A stretch of 64,000 bases of DNA from Zygnema cylindricum (lineage: Eukaryota > Streptophyta > Zygnematophyceae > Zygnematales > Zygnemataceae): positions 155,322-219,321 of the forward strand of contig JBBHKE010000516.1 of assembly GCA_037447655.1 (NCBI GenBank). Direction: 5' to 3'. This document shows positions 8,087-54,960 of the stretch, in pieces. The notes beneath the pieces are model-generated. The model searched no databases. It was not told the origin of the DNA and worked only from the letters and a program-made list of their open reading frames with translations. Every line of letters starts with the position of its first letter. The stretch's first letter is position 1. Made by a program: the position numbers and the translations under genes.

Positions 8087-8703
8087 TGTTAAATCAGGAT
8101 CGATTAACAAATCACAAAAGTATAATAACTCACAGTCTCATAGAAAACACAGAGCTCAGCAAAACACAAGTATATTTCACTAAAGTTTTTCTCACTTCCA
8201 AAATATGTCCTCACTCACTCACTTACTCACTCAATCACTCAGATTGCTAACTCTAATCACTGTCATTGATAATATAAGGCTGCCATAAGTCGTTCCCTAA
8301 ATACCTTCCAAGGCACCAACAACTAGCTGCCACGAAAGCCCACTAAGAATCTGTCCAATACACGTCGTAGTCCACATGCGAATGTGTGCCGTACAAAACA
8401 CATTGGCGCGCGGAGCACTTCACACCACTCCTAACAAGACACAAAGAACAGGAACTTCACGGTGTACAACAAACTAGCAGTGAACACAAAGTAGCCGCAC
8501 TAAAATATTGCACTACCGTACAAGACCAAATGACACTGACGAAATTATAATGCCGCAAATAAACTGAAACATAATCATTCAAACGTAACCAAACGTAAAC
8601 CGAAACATAACTTAAACTAAACCAAGCAAAACGTGACTAAAATACAACGCGAACAAAATTAACATATATCGACCAAACCTACCGATTCTCCCAATATTCC
8701 AAC
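8087..8703 (-). mobile_element. Probable LTR of a copia-type retrotransposon
   Basis: On the minus strand a purine tract (AAGAGGGGGAT) is followed at 8703 by TGTTGGAATATTGGGAGAAT, a typical copia LTR start, and about 617 bp later by TTTAACA, a plausible CA end. The interior contains TTATATTATC-type AT motifs. No second copy of this LTR is in the window and its internal region is not identified, so it may be a solo LTR or the end of a deleted element. The 3' boundary is a guess. Confidence 0.45.
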
Positions 8704-9037
8704 AATCCCCCTCTTATTGGGAAATGCGGGATTGCACACCACTAATGAATATCACCCCCTCTCAAACGTAACATCGCACAAAATAATTTCGTTCATCCAA
8801 AGTAAACCGCATCCTTTTTTTGGTACAGACAAATTGTACCGCACTCAAATTTCATTATTTTTCTTCCCTTTCAGTCCTCACAGACACCTTTCTATATCAA
8901 CTCCGATGTTCAGCTACCTCTTTCAGTCGTAGAAAATTCTTCCTCATGTTTTATTTCTTTCTAAGTTCAAATCGTTTCAACATTAAACAGCAAGCCTCCC
9001 CCCCTTAATTTGCCGCTTGCCAAGGCGTACATGAGAT
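8704..9037. other. No gene recognised between the LTR-like sequence and gag
   Basis: On the minus strand this contains a G-rich purine run just after the gag stop (near 9000-9010). No reverse transcriptase or integrase coding is seen. Confidence 0.4.
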
Positions 9038-10189
9038 TTAGAAAATCTCAACATTTCCTTCTTCTTCCTCTGGACCTGCAAATTGAACATGTCTTCCTCC
9101 ACGCCCTGTACCGCGGCCAAATCCGCCACCACGGCCGCCACGTCATCCTCGTTCTGTATACTCTCCCCCTCGATCGAAACATTGAGCGCTCACATGTCCC
9201 CAACGTTGACAAATGAAGGACTGTTTTTGTAGGTCTGGACATTCGAATGCGAAATGTCCGTATCTGTGACATTTAAAGCATACTGCATTCTGATCAGATT
9301 GTCCGTTGTAATCTCCAAAATTATGTGCTCCTCCTCGGCCCCCTCTTCCACTGCCACCTCTACCTCTCGGTGAACTACCGCCTCCTCTACCATTGACCGC
9401 ATTCACAGTTGGACTCTCATTTGTGGCACTATTGAGAGTGACGGGTATACCATTTCCATCGGATATATTTTCTCCCCTACTCGTTCCTTCCCACGTCTTA
9501 TCCACTCTCTTTAAATAACTGACGGCAAATTCGTATGCTGCCCTCCTCTTCGACTGAATAATCTCTTTTGGTGTACGGAGGTAATCTGGAAGCCCCTTCA
9601 AAAATATCGGTAATTTATAATCCTCTGTGATCATTTGTCCGAGACTAGTTAATTGTTCCACCATAATATTCAACTGCTTAACTGCATCATCATTTGACTC
9701 ATTTTCTCTAAATTTGAACTTTATGAATTCCTCGAATACGAATTGCCACTTATCTACTACCCCTTTCTCAAACTGATTTTCTATTCCCACCCAATATTCA
9801 TGAGCACTGCCATAAGCAAGGAAGTGATCCAAAACTGATGCATGTCAACTTTGCATCAATCCATTCGTTGCATAGATGTCTTTTATCTTCCATAACTGCT
9901 TCCCTTCAAGATCTTTCGGTTCTCTCTCATCTCCATTAACTATTGGCCACAATTTTTTTAACATTAGCTCTCTTTCGATATACTTCTTCCACACTGCGTA
10001 ATTAGATCCATTGAAAAGAACGACTTTGACGGCCATGCGAAACTTTGCCTCCTCACTCCCGACATCCATCTTTTCCTCTTTATCACTTTTCACCTTCCCC
10101 TTAAGCAATTTCTCTTTTCTCCTCTTTTCGGCTTCTCCTCCCGAATCACTACCACTATCATCTGGTTCCGGATTATCAATACCTTGCAT
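9038..10189 (-). pseudogene. Copia-type gag remnant (broken)
   Basis: Retrotransposon Gag protein, which would form the particle that packages element RNA. The minus-strand reading starts at the Met at 10189 with an acidic/Lys-rich N-terminus. Then come a Gag N-terminal motif (FNGSNYAVWKKYIE) and a UBN2-like helical core (LPDYLRTPKE nearby). Next are an RGG-rich stretch, a CCHC zinc knuckle (CFKCHRYGHFAFEC), a second damaged knuckle (CQRWGHVSAQC) and a Gly/Arg tail ending near 9038. The frame is broken near 9840 by a stop or frameshift and again in the tail. An LTR lies directly upstream (10288-10724), but no protease, integrase or RT follows, so this copy is a gag-only fragment. The pol sequence at 10776-12460 lies on the other side of that LTR. 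Confidence 0.85.
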
Positions 10190-10287
10190 GTTGCCCTTTT
10201 GACGGGCAGCTAAGAGTTGCTCATCAAAGGTAGCACAAGGCCGTCAAAAAGCATATTGGAGGTGGATTGACGAAAAGGCCATGAAAT

Positions 10288-10724
10288 TGTACACAAGAGA
10301 AAAATCAATGCATTGGAGAGAGAAATTGATTTGTATTTGGGATGATTTCATTAAGTGAGCAGAGTCACTTATATACAAAAATATACAGTGCTAATTACTT
10401 TGGAGTCTAAACGTTCTACGCTGCGCTGTAACAAAAGGATCCTAGTCTAGATTCTAATAAATGTATAAAAGACAAAGGAAAGACTGGAGCGACGGTCAAA
10501 GAACTGGACCGACGGTCAAAGGACTTTGTACGTAGAAAAGACTAGACCAACGTATGTAATGAAAAATACAAAAGACAGGACCGACGTATAAAAGTACGGA
10601 CAGGACCAAAAGTAAGTCTTCCGGATAAGACGTAAGAAATGAAAAGTACGACCAAGACCACCGACACATATAATCAAAAGGTACAAATGTGCCAAAAGGT
10701 AAACGGCTAAATTTCCCTTATCAA
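10288..10724 (-). mobile_element. LTR shared between pol (upstream) and gag (downstream)
   Basis: On the minus strand the polypurine tract GAGGGGGG (10725-10732) directly precedes TTGATAAGGGAAATTTAGCC, and about 436 bp later the sequence reads TCTCTTGTGTACA just before the gag leader. A TATATAAG motif at 10375-10368 fits the LTR promoter. The PPT side faces the end of pol and the other side faces gag, as for a 3' LTR of one element serving as 5' LTR of the next. No clear primer-binding site is seen after its 3' end, so that boundary is approximate. Confidence 0.65.
10368..10375 (-). promoter_or_regulatory. TATA box of the LTR
   Basis: TATATAAG in a CT/AT-rich context, about 80 bp before the putative LTR end and about 180 bp before the gag Met. 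This is the expected place for an LTR pol II promoter. Confidence 0.5.
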
Positions 10725-10775
10725 CCCCCCTCAAGCGAAAACTAGAAAATAGATTGATATGAAAACAAAGGAAAT

Positions 10776-12460
10776 TTAGCCATAAAGAAAAGGAAGACAA
10801 AGGCCAGAGTAGAGGCGGTGTTGCTCAAAGTGAGGGCGATGAAGAGCCTTGGTGAGATAATCGACCACTTGGTCGGCCGATTTGACATAAAGAAACTGGA
10901 GCGTGCCATCTTCAACCCGCTCCTGAGAGTAATGATACTGAATGTCAATGTGCTCCGTCTGCTTGTGGTGAACAGGATTGCGGATCAAAGCAAGAGCTCC
11001 CTAGGAATCGAAAAAGATAGGAGTAGGGGCTGAAGGGGGAAATCCAAGATTGGAAAGAAGAGTCTGAAGCCGGACAGCTTCCTTTGCGGCGTGACAAGCA
11101 GCCATATATTCCGCCTCAATGCTGGAGCATGCAGTGGTAGGTTGCTTTCTGCATGACCAAGAGATAATACCTTTGCCCAAAAAGAAGCACGAGCCAGTGG
11201 TGGAACGGCGGGAAACCTCATCTTTTGCCCAATCCGAATAACAAAACCCGTAAGAGTACTAGAGCCAGAGGAAAAATATGTAAGACAAAGAGTTTTAGTG
11301 CCCTGTAGATAACGAAATACACGTTTGGCTCTAGCAAGATGATCAAGAGAAGGACGTTGGAGGAATTGACTGAGTTTAGTGACTGCTGTAGCAATGTTAG
11401 GACGGGTGGCCTGCATGGCGTACATAAGGGCTTCGACCATCAAGCGGTAAGTGGAATGGAGGGAGGGAGAGAGAATAGAATCAGTGGAATGGAGGAGACA
11501 TTCACTATGGAAAGGGAGGAAAAATCTCCCCAAAGCTTCCGTCGAAAGAACAAGATCATCTTGGCGCGAAAAGAGGAGGATTCTGGAGTGACAAAAAGAG
11601 AGGGTATTGATTGGCTGGCAAGTGATGGGGCAGCAAAACAAGGGGAAAGCAGATGGAGGAATTAGCATGAAAAAAATATGGGAGGATGAGGAAAAAAGTG
11701 AAAGGTCGTCGTCCTTCGAGAGAAGGTCAGGGTCAAAGGCATCGGATCTGGGGAAGAAGGGAAGGGCGTACGAGACAAGGTTTGGAGAAGAGACGTTTCG
11801 TTGAAAATTACTTCTATAGTGGTAATGACGTGATTTTGAGAAGGACTCCAGATGCGGTACGCTTTGGAATTTGGAGCGTACCCAACGAAAATCCCACGAA
11901 ATGCGCGGGCACCCAATTTGACATCTGATTAGAGGAGGTCTTTATACCACGCTTCACATCCAAAGATTCGAAGGTGGCATATATGTGCTTTGATAGATGA
12001 CCACGTTTCCATTCGATAGATTTTGGTAAAGCGTTAGTGGGACAAATGTTTCGTAAGTAATTTGCGAAAACGACAGCCTCTGCCCCTAAATTCATAAGGC
12101 AAATTGGAAAAGTAGAGCATGGAGCGTGACATGTCATGTAGTTTTCTATTCTACCTTTCTGCGATGCCGTTTTGTTGTGGCGTCCAAGGCACCGTTAAAT
12201 GACGCGAGATTCCATGTTGCATGAGAAAGTCAGAAAATTGGTTAGACAAAAATTCTCCACCATTGTCACTATGCAAGACCTTGATTCGTTTGTTGTGAAA
12301 ATTTTCTGCCAACGCCTAAAATTCTTGAAATCGTGCATTCCTTAAATCGTGCAAATGCGTCAGATTTATGACAAATTGGATACACATGTGAAAAACGAGT
12401 GGCGTGGTTGAAACTCTGAGACCTCCATTGGCCCTCGGAGTAGCCCTCAGAGTATGCAGA
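10776..12460 (-). pseudogene. Copia-type pol remnant: integrase and RNase H, reverse transcriptase deleted
   Basis: Minus-strand pieces in copia order. First comes integrase core, with HSDNGGEF near 12275 and TPQQNGIAER near 12165 carrying the second Asp and the Glu of the DDE triad. Then integrase C-terminal sequence (FRGIFVGYAPNSKAYRIW near 11890) and a Pro/Ser-rich linker. Next is the RT-tail/RNase H hinge (EALMYAMQATRPNIATAV near 11430), and finally RNase H (ACSSIEAEYMA near 11115; HIDIQYHY near 10950). The frame breaks repeatedly. The RT palm with its YVDD-type motif is absent: fewer than about 250 bp separate the integrase tail from the hinge, where roughly 750 bp is expected. The remnant is dead. 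The PPT and LTR follow at 10735-10288. Confidence 0.88.
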
Positions 12461-12672
12461 TCCAAAAGAAGCTAATCTAGATAGTGCCGACTCCAAGTTG
12501 ATATAAACCCAAATGACTGACCCCTTGACAGTCAGAACCCCAATATAGATTCACCCGTGTGAAGTAACATTTTCTGTGTGCTCAGTTCCACCACAGAATG
12601 CAAAGTTAGAATATGAGATTTGGACACATTCACCCACTTTGACTTTCCCTTAAAAATACTGCCACCTTGGCA
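12457..12672. repeat. Dispersed repeat (about 215 bp), copy 1
   Basis: Strongly similar to 20007-20217 in the same orientation, sharing blocks such as GCTCAGTTCCACCACAGAAT and CCCACTTTGACTTTCC. It sits next to the integrase remnant. The shared minus-strand frame has no recognisable domain. It could be an upstream part of the same copia family or a separate repeat. Confidence 0.7.
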
Positions 12673-12800
12673 GAGAAAAAACTCTGACCGACTACCCACC
12701 TGTGTAGCATGGACTCCCTTGAGTCCGCAGCAAAAAGAATCACTGAAAATGGTCAAGTAAATTGATAGTTATGGCTGGCCAAAGTTGTTTGCCATTTATA

Positions 12801-50870: not shown

Positions 50871-50929
50871 TCCACCTCCTCTCTCTACCCCCCATACTTG
50901 TTGTAGTCACTGAAGAAAAGAAAGGGTGG

Positions 50930-51065
50930 TGGAGCCATGGCTACCTCAGCTCCATAGGCAGGACTGAAGAGTGACATAAGTCACTCTCAACAAAAAAGTG
51001 AGTTCGGCAAGACTCGAACCTCCAACCAGCAGAGCGAGGCCTAGCCGTCAGTTGTAACCAGTTTG
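50930..51065 (-). mobile_element. tRNA-derived SINE-like remnant
   Basis: Minus strand carries GGTTCGAGTCT (51020-51010), a near-perfect pol III box B, in a tRNA T-arm-like context ending GCCGAACTCAC. Box A is not convincing. It may be a decayed SINE or tRNA relic. Confidence 0.35.
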
Positions 51066-51269
51066 TGGTAGGAGTTCGTTATAATACATAGGGTTTATAT
51101 TAAATTTAAACAGTATATAGGAAATTTTATCCGATTAACAGATTTTGCGGATGAAAAACATGGAGACTAATGAAAGTATGGTGCGGACCAAAACCCGCAC
51201 AAAACAAATGTACCGGACATTTGTTTCAATGGCTACTATCAAAAGCCGATTAGGATCCGACAGCACATA

Positions 51270-51461
51270 TCATCGCTGAGATCCCGGAATGGCCTCTTTG
51301 GCGATTTTTCGGTGTGACATGACCTGGTGCCACGTGGCAAGATAGCATTTGGAAGCACAAATCCCGGGGAGCATGAGGACGAGTCCCAAAGAGAGAAGCG
51401 TCCACTCCACGACCTTATCGTACACTGGGCGTACAGAAAGAACATCGGCCATAGTACCTTT
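51270..51461 (-). CDS. Possible last exon of a small membrane protein
   Basis: After a good acceptor (TGTACATTGCAG, minus strand) a frame runs 60-odd codons to a TGA: MADVLSVRPVYDKVVEW, then a hydrophobic segment (LLSLGLVLMLPGI), then a basic tail (HRKIAKEAIPGSQR). The LPG after a hydrophobic stretch recalls TMEM230/134-type proteins, but the following Gly-Tyr motif of that family is missing, so this is only a guess. Upstream exons would lie above 51461 and were not found. It could be a complete small exon starting at its own Met. Confidence 0.35.
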   Translation of the reverse strand, partial: KGTMADVLSVRPVYDKVVEWTLLSLGLVLMLPGICASKCYLATWHQVMSHRKIAKEAIPGSQR

Positions 51462-51479
51462 CTGCAATGTACAATCATC

Positions 51480-52043
51480 TGATTAGAGCGTACTTGAGTA
51501 GATAGAGGTTGTGAGAGGGGTTTAGGACTTATATAATATAGGAGGTAGGCGCCTCTCTCCCAAATAGGCTTGTATAAATCTTGGCATCTTTGCCACTTTA
51601 TAACTAATTGTCTCGTTGGGCTATTTCTGTGATACTTTTTGCTGCGGAATTAGGGGAGTCCAGACTGCACAGAGGTGCGGTCAGATTGTCTACTTGCCTA
51701 CTAGGGTAGCAGTGGTCTTAGTTGAAAGTGGGTCAATCAAAAACTGCCAAGAAGTGTCCTAAATTTGTAGTCCAATAAGGGATACAAAATTACAATATAA
51801 TCGGCCCACCCTCTAGGTGCCCACCTTCAACAAATTTGGGTTTATTTATTGGGAAGCCATGATGACAAGGACTTTGTGTGAAAAACGATATTGGGGTATT
51901 GTCAGTGGACAAGTGAAACGTCCACCTGAGGGAACTCGGCTAGGGTTTGGTGGAGTGAGGTTTTTTGCAGCGTCATCTGTTCCAACGGAGGAGGCAAACA
52001 ATGGGGACAAAACTGTGTCCGAAAGAGGGAAAGGGAAAGAGAA
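51480..52043. other. No gene recognised
   Basis: Mixed sequence between the possible exon and the TRIM elements. Confidence 0.4.
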
Positions 52044-52410
52044 CAGTCCAATACGGGGTAGAATATAGAATATCTTTACTCGAGCCACCCGTAATAAATG
52101 GGTACGGATCCGCGAGTCTCTACATTTTACGTAGTGTTGGACGTGCTGAATCCCAAATTCCTAAAAAATCTAATATGGTATCAAAGCCAGCGTGGTTCCG
52201 GATGGTTTGACCAGCTTTCTCGTGAGGGGGGGTGTTGGATTGACACGTAAAGTCGTCCAATACATGGTAGAATATGGAATATCCATACTCGAACAGCCCA
52301 TAAGATACGGGTACCGACTAGCCAGTCTCTGCATCGAGCTGGTGGCAGAGTGGTAGTGCGTTCGCAGCTGAGGTGAAAGTTCCTAGGTTCGAAACCCTGG
52401 CCGACTCAAT
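52044..52410 (+). mobile_element. TRIM-like LTR element B (partial), plus strand
   Basis: Left LTR 52044-52175 (5' truncated and lacking the tRNA-like part), PBS TGGTATCAAAGC at 52176-52187, PPT GAGGGGGGG at 52224-52232, then right LTR from TGTTGGATTGACACG at 52233 to 52410, where it is cut off by element A. The internal region (PBS to PPT inclusive) is 57 bp, exactly as in element A. Confidence 0.8.
52335..52408 (+). ncRNA. tRNA-like unit in the right LTR of element B
   Basis: Box A TGGCAGAGTGG (52343-52353) and box B GGTTCGAAACC (52386-52396), spanning 54 bp; a tRNA has 55. The T-arm pairing is partly kept. A potential pol III promoter. Confidence 0.6.
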
Positions 52411-52464
52411 TATTGATTTCCGTGAAATATGTGATTCGGTATATCCCATACTAGGGAAAGTGAG

Positions 52465-52533
52465 CCCGCCAGGGCACGAACCTATGACCTCTGACTTGAG
52501 TTGTCAGCGCACTAACCACTGAGCCACCAGTTC
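52465..52533 (-). ncRNA. tRNA-like unit in LTR 2 of element A
   Basis: Box A TGGCTCAGTGG (52526-52516) and a weakened box B GGTTCGTGCCC (52482-52472), again 55 bp overall. Only TTT follows, not TTTT. Confidence 0.6.
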
Positions 52534-52746
52534 GATGTAGAGCCTGGCGCGTCCGTACCTATTTCTTTTAGGCGAATTCGAGTGTGATGTATCACATTCT
52601 ACCCCGTATTGAACTGGCATTCACGTGCCAATCCAACACCCCCCCTCACGGGAAGGCCGGTCACACCATCCGAAATCCCACTGGCTCCAATACCATGTTG
52701 ATTTCCGTGAAATCCTGGATTCGGTTGTCCCATACTAGGGAAAAGT

Positions 52747-52818
52747 GAGCCGGCCAGGACTCGAACCCGGAACCTCTGACTTGAGCTGCCAGCGCATTAA
52801 CCACTGTGCCACCAGCGC
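52747..52818 (-). ncRNA. tRNA-like unit in LTR 1 of element A
   Basis: Box A TGGCACAGTGG (52811-52801) and perfect box B GGTTCGAGTCC (52767-52757), spanning 55 bp as in a tRNA. CCGGG/CCTGG forms a T-stem, and the run TTTT (52744-52741), a pol III terminator, follows at once. The anticodon arm is poor, so no isotype is assigned. Same direction as the LTR. Confidence 0.7.
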
Positions 52819-52923
52819 GATGTAGAGCGTGGTAGGTGTGTACCTATTTCTTTTAGGGGGCTTCGAGTGAGACATATCACATTTTACCCCGTATTGAACT
52901 GGCATTCACGTGCCAATCCAACA

Positions 52924-54960
52924 TCATGGAGTGGATACCCACAGATGCGATTCGCGTATAGGTGTTGGCATGTCACGTTACTCAATCACACGTGTATTTG
53001 AGACCGATAGCCAATGGACTTAACTTTTGCCGAAAATATGTACGGTTGAATCATTTTTTCACAATACGAAATTGAGTTACATAGCAGCAGGCGCCATTTT
53101 AGTTCAGACTCAAGTTTTATTTTATAAAACTAACGCTTTCACGAAGTTAGTAACAACAAAATATTTGAATTGTAGTTAGCGGTTCTTATTTTTTTTTTTT
53201 GCCCAACCGATTGGAAATTAAACTAAATGTACACAAAAAAAAACATAATAAGACTTAATGATATAAGACCTACGTGCAAGTTTCGATGTGCAAGTTTCGT
53301 GTTTGGATGTGCAACTTTTGCACATCGAAATATGTTACATGTGATGTGCGTTTTGATTATGCTAGTTTTTTGTAGTTTTTTTGTATAGTAAAGGTAAAAC
53401 AAAATCATGAGTTTGTTGTACGTCGTTTTTTTTCAATGGTAGTTTACAATTTGTAATCACCGAAACCATTTAATGATATGTTTTTAATCTTTTAACTGAC
53501 AAAAATAACTTTTTACTTAGAGTCTAAAAATAACATTGTTACAACATTCAAATTAATCATATAAAATTGTTTGCATTAACAAGATGTTTTATGGCTAGTC
53601 TCGACCACTAAACAAAGTGATGTTAATTGCGATGAAATATGCAAGGGGTACATCTTTAGATAGCGAAAAAACAATACCATTAGACTAGACTATTGTAGCC
53701 GATTGATTATGGCTATCTTTTTTCCTTGTTTGAGAGAGATTACTCTTATGTAAAGAATTTATACGTGCATATACTCTATGTGGTGAGGTGACTATGCTAA
53801 TTCCTCCCAAAATGATAATGGATTTTTTTTGGCCGACAAAAATGGTAAAAATTGGTTACACATTACTATCGTTTACTCATTATTCCGATTACTTATGATG
53901 AGAGATAAACAAATAAGGTTTAAAATAATTAATTTGGGCTTGTTTTTTGAAAAAACTCTTTATTACCCATCAAGCCTTCATTAGGGCATTAACAAAACAT
54001 ATAACCTCGCTATCAAAACATTATAAAAAAAAACTATTTATGGGAGTGTATGCCTAGACCAATTTATTGGTGTTATAATTACGATGAGGATGCATGGGTT
54101 TCGAGTTTTTTATTTGGAGTAGTTAAATAAATTGCTTTTAGCTAATAAAAATCGATCCATGTGGAAAAAAACTTTATGTGCATTTTTCACTTAAATTGTT
54201 TTGAACTATTTTGGCGAATAACCGGTATTTGTGAATTGGTGAATTTCCAATGCGTGTATGGTTGATCCATGTGTGTAGTCTATATGAGATTATTTGATGG
54301 TTTGACAAAATAAGTGTGTTAAAAGGTCAGGACGATACTGTTTATCAAGTTTATAATTATTTATTATTATTGATCAAGGTTAAAAAATGTTAACGTCTGT
54401 TGTTGCAATTGGCATCAACAATTTGTTTTAATCTAAATACGTGGGTGTTCATCGCAATATTTATGCCACGAGGGACGGGAGTGGTTCACCTAAGTGAACT
54501 ATTATAATAAAACAAATTTGATGGGTAAAAAAAAAACAGGGTATGTACTCCCAATGGTGTATTTTTCAGTGTGAAATTTAGGTCTTATAAACAATAAAGG
54601 GGCGAACGAAAACGCCGCATTTGATCTTTTATTTTTGTACCCTAACTAACAAAAAAATGTTTTTGAGGGCTTTATGGTAATATAGTATATCGGCAAGAAA
54701 CGTATCGCGATAAAACCGTTAACCTTAGTTATCGGTTGTTGAACGATGAGGAGTCACAATATATCCCTCCGAGACCAACAAAATCCTTATTGGCGATAGT
54801 ATAACCAAATATAGTACGCTATATAATAATAATTTATAATATATTGTATTATGTTATTGACTATATACAACTTGGCATGCCACGTATGACAGTGTGCTAC
54901 GTACTCTGTATGACGAGAGGTCATCACGAACAACTTTTCGTACGACTGTATGGAATAAAC
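52924..54960. other. No gene recognised (about 2 kb, AT-rich)
   Basis: Contains a small inverted repeat around GATGTGCAAGTTTCG / TTTTGCACATCGAAA at 53276-53332. No coding motif. Confidence 0.5.

Follow-up and report, generated by a model that had tools for sequence, protein, structure and literature searches.

A family of small LTR elements with a tRNA-like unit in the LTR, a Helenus-type TRIM, in the streptophyte Zygnema cylindricum

Overview

The window, a stretch of 64 kb from the genome of Zygnema cylindricum, contains two adjoining elements, A and B. Both are likely copies of one family of non-autonomous LTR retrotransposons, a Helenus-type TRIM that would be transcribed by pol III and mobilized by the enzymes of a Copia element. 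The family is a member of the Helenus type in another streptophyte, an assignment made by described features and not by sequence kinship. It occurs as two diverged subfamilies, represented in the window by elements A and B, and both keep a tRNA-like unit in the LTR.

The elements of the window

The two elements consist of the following parts (positions of the 64-kb window).

52411..52923, minus strand: element A, complete LTR-57-LTR unit of 513 bp; the same design is found elsewhere in the genome
52696..52923, minus strand: 5' LTR of element A, TGTTG...CAACA, 228 bp
52639..52695, minus strand: interior of element A, 57 bp; the PBS abuts the 5' LTR and the PPT GTGAGGGGGGG abuts the 3' LTR
52411..52638, minus strand: 3' LTR of element A, 228 bp, terminal bases CAATA
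52044..52410, plus strand: element B, on the opposite strand to element A and adjoining it
52044..52175, plus strand: 5' LTR of element B, without its left end and without the tRNA-like unit
52176..52232, plus strand: interior of element B, 57 bp, with the PBS TGGTATCAAAGCCAG and a PPT
52233..52410, plus strand: 3' LTR of element B, which ends just past the tRNA-like unit, at element A

The coordinates confirm the minimal LTR-PBS-PPT-LTR design that a first-pass annotation had read from element A, as well as the opposite orientation and the equally long interior of element B (52176-52232). The LTRs of element A are 85% identical over 228 bp each. They had both been described as bounded by TG..CA, which is true of the 5' LTR, whereas the 3' LTR ends in ..ATA, a single change with respect to the CA of the 5' LTR. 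The flanks of element A (TCAAT and TCATG) share 3 of 5 bases, which fits an old insertion.

The 5' LTR of element B lacks approximately 21-23 bp at its left end and, compared to a young B LTR, a further 75 nt that correspond to the tRNA-like unit plus 3 nt. The simplest account is a loss of the unit after insertion, through slippage across a hairpin base. That the absent stretch comprises the unit and little else could also mean that this LTR preserves the ancestral state before a unit was captured, a reading we consider very improbable: the other LTR of element B has the unit, and the joint of the deletion carries a 2-nt repeat of the kind expected from such slippage. Furthermore, 40 of the 42 other matches to the unit-less LTR (best 40 of 531 candidates) stop at the start of the unit, and the remaining two are one shorter piece and one LTR with approximately half a unit (contig C1684, L080). 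No wholly unit-less copy was found beyond the window among the scored places (best 40 of 531 candidates).

Elsewhere in the window, the minus strand holds remains of Copia-type elements at 8700-12800, namely a Copia-type gag with a zinc knuckle (9143-9844, Pfam) and integrase/RT-like pieces, recognized by eye, that end in the PPT TTGAGGGGGG, which resembles that of the TRIM. The open reading frame at 10985-11941 has no Pfam match. A gene for a LanC-like protein is located at 40.4-42.2 kb. Its product has 54-67% identity to land-plant proteins (120 listed of 879 matches); among the matches listed, the identity is 58% to Chara braunii, 56-57% to Selaginella moellendorffii and 89% to one protein.

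A family of fixed design in the host genome

The genome was queried with the element itself, a check already proposed in the first-pass annotation. A 285-bp query against 352.8 Mb of the host genome gave 90 match rows, from 40 of 793 candidates scored, which correspond to 40 places, i.e., 39 beyond the window. Both outer LTR ends are present at 33 of these 40 best-scoring places, and the remaining 7 are truncated or rearranged; the LTR-57-LTR structure is therefore not due to chance. Intact copies have a length of about 513-519 bp, the PBS is of the TGGTATC type, and the PPT reads TGAGGGGGG.

Used as a pattern, the initial 22 bases from the interior of a young copy match the genome 279 times with up to 2 mismatches, versus a single match for the reversed pattern. 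From the early part of the 100 listed of these 279 places, 20 were picked by hand, none of them previously fetched; tandem places on contigs C346 and C683 were skipped, and so were a few others. An LTR start (TGTTG or a one-base variant) follows 57 bases past the PBS start at 18 of the 20 places and after 58 bases at one, and at the last (L143) the PPT is followed by other DNA. With 19 of 20 sampled places at 57 or 58 bases, the short interior is the design of the family and no accident, as had been supposed from the two elements of the window, and a local deletion of a gag-pol element is ruled out as its source. Four of the 20 sampled interiors have no 5' LTR and start within approximately 6 bases of the PBS. 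Their flanks end in AATA (L137), AACA (L142), ATCA (L145) and AACA (L147), and no matching duplication was seen at L137, L145 and L147. In the other 16 interiors the upstream match to the LTR end covers all 60 bases in 15 cases and about 30 bases in one (L140).

Of the 33 places that retain both outer ends, 18 are bordered by exact 5-bp target duplications, compared to 3 of 1054 in a control with mismatched pairing. L039 and L040, both among the 18, share flanks that are identical over 400 bases and are copies of one place. Among the other 15, three share 4 of 5 bases and 12 share 3 or fewer; two places (L011 and L012) have no exact duplication though their LTRs are more than 99% alike. The LTR pairs are identical at three places (L009, L013, L015) and 98.7-99.6% alike at six further places, hence the family looks recently mobile. 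An unselected stretch of 200 kb on contig C1393 holds two places, too few for an estimate of copy number. An autonomous partner was not found in the fetched copies and the 20 of 279 PBS places examined, and viral and prokaryote contigs gave no exact match to one pattern of the element.

The tRNA-like unit

A tRNA-like unit of 72-73 nt is present in three of the four LTRs of the window, in differing degrees of decay.

52746..52818, minus strand: tRNA-like unit in the 5' LTR of element A, followed by C and TTTT (Rfam RF00005, 41.3 bits; ARAGORN)
52461..52533, minus strand: tRNA-like unit in the 3' LTR of element A, decayed (Rfam RF00005, 23.8 bits)
52336..52408, plus strand: tRNA-like unit in the 3' LTR of element B, subfamily B type (ARAGORN; alignment with B-type copies)

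The unit in the 5' LTR of element A reaches an E-value of 2.5e-5 (whole window against all Rfam families), the unit in its 3' LTR falls under the curated cut-off of 29 bits for the Rfam tRNA family, and the unit of element B is not among the Rfam matches at E<=10 in a scan of 50900-53100. Measured by eye, the two boxes of the unit lie about 55 nt apart in A and 54 nt apart in B, end to end. The spacing of 54-55 bp noted earlier for three LTRs is thus reproduced, as is the TTTT behind a single unit of the window, that of the A 5' LTR. On the minus strand at 50980-51030, a box B-like stretch is followed by CTTTTTT and is perhaps the 3' half of a further tRNA-like repeat.

Young copies retain a full cloverleaf, with Rfam tRNA scores of up to 54.6 bits in subfamily A and of 53.6 bits in subfamily B in a scan of 20 of the 40 loci, and of up to 58.1 bits in B in a further scan; in some family copies the unit is decayed. 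Seven of 20 sample pieces were scanned as well and gave no match at E<=0.1, though two decayed copies are present there. Of 75 LTRs, most of them of subfamily A, 70 have a T4 run immediately 3' of the unit, as do 22 of 24 B LTRs; two LTRs are common to both sets. Box B contains GGTTC, and box A has TGG, reading TRGC followed by A instead of Y in the alignment. Short duplications inside the unit occur near box A in L045 and L049 (C1393:105855 onward) and in the anticodon arm in L022.

The units score lower than typical tRNA genes, as 56 of the 63 tRNA matches scored in the host genome (of 24,620 candidates) lie at 62.5-73.9 bits. ARAGORN labels most intact units as tRNA-Glu (CTC) or tRNA-Gln (CTG). 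Decoding tRNAs obey the U33 rule. The anticodon loop reads AGCTCAA in A and AGCTGAA in B, and U33 is absent from both in the alignment, which makes a role of the unit in decoding improbable. Among the sampled cellular tRNAs none exceeds a likeness of 76.5% to A or 78.5% to B, in a comparison that covers 39 of 40 fetched places from the 63 scored matches, as called by ARAGORN, with many isotypes not represented. Direct descent from a sampled cellular tRNA is accordingly unsupported.

Conservation of the unit within and between subfamilies

Outside the unit, subfamily B is about 80% like subfamily A; a further, older type is represented on contig C1393. The unit occupies an identical position within the LTR in both, which rules out a separate SINE insertion into the LTR for these copies. 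The first-pass annotation had suggested comparing box A and box B with the rest of the LTR; the two boxes do not stand out within subfamily A, where the box A window ranks 53rd and the box B window 170th of 218, and the unit as a whole is no better conserved than the remaining LTR (0.962 versus 0.952; one LTR per locus, 39 loci, with L040 omitted as a copy of L039). Free decay of copies once they have inserted would be expected to leave no extra conservation; the useful contrast is the one between source lineages.

The within-A result would also suit a functionless unit, a passive relic that goes back to a single capture of a SINE or tRNA fragment by the ancestral LTR of an element that is transcribed by pol II, and SINE capture is indeed proposed for the Helenus kind overall (Kojima 2024, PMC10886601). 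Between lineages, however, such a relic is expected to decay at the rate of the LTR, whereas the cloverleaf, the GGTTC of box B and the T4 run are kept in subfamilies that are only ~80% alike outside the unit. We regard a passive relic as distinctly unlikely.

The comparison of A and B is based on 71 A and 24 B LTRs (L048, L044_2 and L029_2 omitted from A; two gap differences uncounted). Over the whole unit, 7 of 73 positions differ, versus 29 of 156 elsewhere in the LTR, a non-significant contrast (p 0.12). Three of the 29 differences are alignment artefacts caused by a one-base shift at the LTR end; after their removal the count elsewhere is 26 of 156 (p 0.22). The anticodon arm, with 17 positions, accounts for six of the seven differences within the unit. 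Outside this arm, a cut chosen post hoc, the subfamilies differ at 1 of 56 positions, versus 29 of 156 elsewhere (p 0.0013) or 26 of 156 without the artefacts (p 0.0022). The acceptor strands and the last base, which lie outside box A and box B, show no difference at all (0 of 15). One difference in the length of the D-loop is uncounted.

The differences within the anticodon arm are matched across its stem. It reads CTGAC/GTCAG in A and TTCGC/GTGAA in B, such that two pairs are altered on both sides and one A-U pair becomes G-U. Starting from units with at least 85% of their length kept (80 units, 59 distinct, 26 of the 59 aligned), 94.1% of the pair cells are paired versus 92.4% in shuffles (26 distinct units). 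The covariation score of 0.151 (versus 0.120) is reached by 0 of 500 shuffles, which ignore kinship, and the number of double-change pairs is 3 versus a shuffle mean of 2.5, equalled by 240 of 500 shuffles.

These data are hints of, and no proof for, selection on the RNA fold, since they derive from one A/B split and from a cut chosen post hoc. Because a stem outside both boxes has changed in matched pairs that preserve the cloverleaf, the unit may tentatively be read as selected as a folded tRNA-like RNA beyond its role as a box A/B promoter. A stronger version, in which the unit is retained chiefly for its RNA fold, to serve in processing by tRNA enzymes, export, protein binding or packaging, with a promoter role that is secondary or shared, would account for the near-identity outside the anticodon arm, the unchanged acceptor strands, the matched changes of the anticodon stem and the covariation score above all shuffles. 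We consider it possible but doubtful: about two independent paired changes are involved, the control ignores kinship, nearly half of the shuffles equal the double-change count, and a cut by RNase P or Z at the unit of the 5' LTR would take away the R region that strand transfer requires.

The same clustering of differences in the anticodon arm, together with the D-loop difference, might instead reflect that A and B acquired different units, by two captures or by an exchange of the anticodon arm with a tRNA or SINE, in which case the stem changes are not a product of co-evolution. The acceptor and T arms are nearly identical between A and B, though, and the sampled cellular tRNAs offer no closer donor than the likenesses given above; different origins thus appear unlikely.

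Mixed arrays and chimeras

Several places hold more than two LTRs. L029 has the structure A-int-B-int-A and L044 the structure B-int-A-int-B, and exact 5-bp duplications bound both. Likeness between the outer LTRs is 97.8% in L029 and 92.2% in L044, and the middle LTR is 84-88% like the outer ones. Unequal crossing-over between alleles yields like LTRs. Both places instead look like mixed-array transcripts or recombined cDNA that would have been inserted as one piece. Trimers of A-type LTRs are found at L031 and L034, and L141 is a chimera in which the 5' LTR ends as B type and the 3' LTR starts as A type. Arrays that alternate A and B LTR types are a further oddity of the family.

Relation to known small LTR elements

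Helenus comprises TRIMs whose LTRs bear a tRNA-like sequence, described from fungi, animals and one plant, Selaginella moellendorffii, the sole plant host given (Kojima 2024, PMC10886601). Together with Cassandra and Ajax it forms the TRIMp3 group; several origins are expected for Helenus, a link to SINEs is proposed, and transcription by pol III is left unproven (Kojima 2024, PMC10886601). The elements studied here share with Helenus the size of a TRIM below 1000 bp with two LTRs (here about 513-519 bp), a tRNA-derived sequence in both LTRs (here with maxima of 54.6 bits for A and 58.1 bits for B), a PBS and a PPT between the LTRs (here within 57 bp), the 5-bp target duplications of its plant and fungal families (here exact at 18 of 33 places), the GGTTC in box B, and tandem arrays, which are reported for the zebrafish family LTR-11_DR. 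The predicted structures of Helenus do not support a tRNA function, and the anticodon loop here is without U33. Differences concern box A, which is TGGCA here and TRGCY in Helenus, a motif stated for most families only, as well as the dimensions: Helenus-1_SMo, the single plant family, has an LTR of 120 bp and an interior of 85 bp, compared to about 228 bp and 57 bp. Most Helenus families also have YGG in box A, for which TGG is found here. Paired changes between subfamilies, as seen here, are undiscussed for Helenus in those parts of Kojima 2024 (PMC10886601) that were available. As the tested features fit and the host is a streptophyte other than S. moellendorffii, the family is a new member of Helenus.

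The first-pass annotation had recognized a TRIM with a tRNA-like, pol III-type unit in the LTR, parallel to the 5S-bearing Cassandra, and the units of the LTRs bear this out. Its suggestion of a new invention is rejected, because the kind is published as Helenus (Kojima 2024, PMC10886601). Literature searches on Helenus and TRIMp3 gave, besides Kojima 2024, one relevant 2026 meeting report, and a search on tRNA-derived TRIMs and streptophyte algae gave nothing relevant besides Kojima 2024 among the matches listed.

Like Cassandra, the family has a pol III-type unit inside the LTR, the same type of PBS (TGGTATCAGAGC in the Cassandra search pattern, PMC7215508) and tandem arrays of LTRs and interiors (PMC7215508). 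Unlike Cassandra, the unit is tRNA-like and not a 5S rRNA, for which the Rfam scans of the window and the copies gave no match. Retrozymes, too, are non-autonomous LTR elements of small size whose LTRs contain a functional RNA motif (PMC11722881); their motif is a hammerhead ribozyme instead of a tRNA-like unit, and neither hammerhead nor any other ribozyme family was matched in the same scans. A minimal interior is shared with SMART and other plant TRIMs, among which arrays with at least three LTRs occur frequently (PMC4717578). In the main text of that survey of plant TRIMs 5S sequences are given for Cassandra only and the term 'tRNA' is absent, in contrast to the tRNA-like unit described here; such units seem not to have been considered there (PMC4717578). 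SINEs have no LTRs and move by target-primed reverse transcription; identity with a SINE does not apply here, as LTR pairs, PBS, PPT and 5-bp duplications are present.

A proposed replication cycle

From the arrangement of these parts we infer the following cycle. Pol III would initiate near box A of the 5' LTR, pass the weak T4 run of this LTR, traverse the 57-bp interior and stop at the T4 run of the 3' LTR. Read-through has to be assumed in this scheme, as the T4 run in the 5' LTR would otherwise halt pol III early. The resulting RNA of ~370 nt would carry the unit at both ends, serving as R. The PBS of the family, of the TGGTATC type, presumably fits tRNA-iMet, which would prime reverse transcription. 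An autonomous LTR element, probably Copia, would supply the enzymes for reverse transcription and integration; the 5-bp duplications and the kind of PBS, which is also used by Cassandra, point to this step. We note that the young copy L009 has no other T4 runs on its sense strand, which is uninformative as a sign of pol III use, as shuffles expect just 0.33 such runs per 286 bases.

Implications

As far as the literature searches show, Helenus-type TRIMs reach with this family a second streptophyte host beside Selaginella. The labels tRNA-Glu and tRNA-Gln that ARAGORN assigns to the units imply that tRNA genes can be overcounted in such genomes, an effect shown for rust fungi (Kojima 2024, PMC10886601). 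New with respect to the available parts of Kojima 2024 are two co-existing subfamilies, both with a full cloverleaf. Kojima 2024 leaves open whether a captured tRNA is kept as a promoter alone or as a fold too, and the co-existence of two diverged subfamilies renders this question testable. Should the fold be under selection, the element may use the maturation, export or recognition of tRNAs, as retrozymes use their ribozyme.
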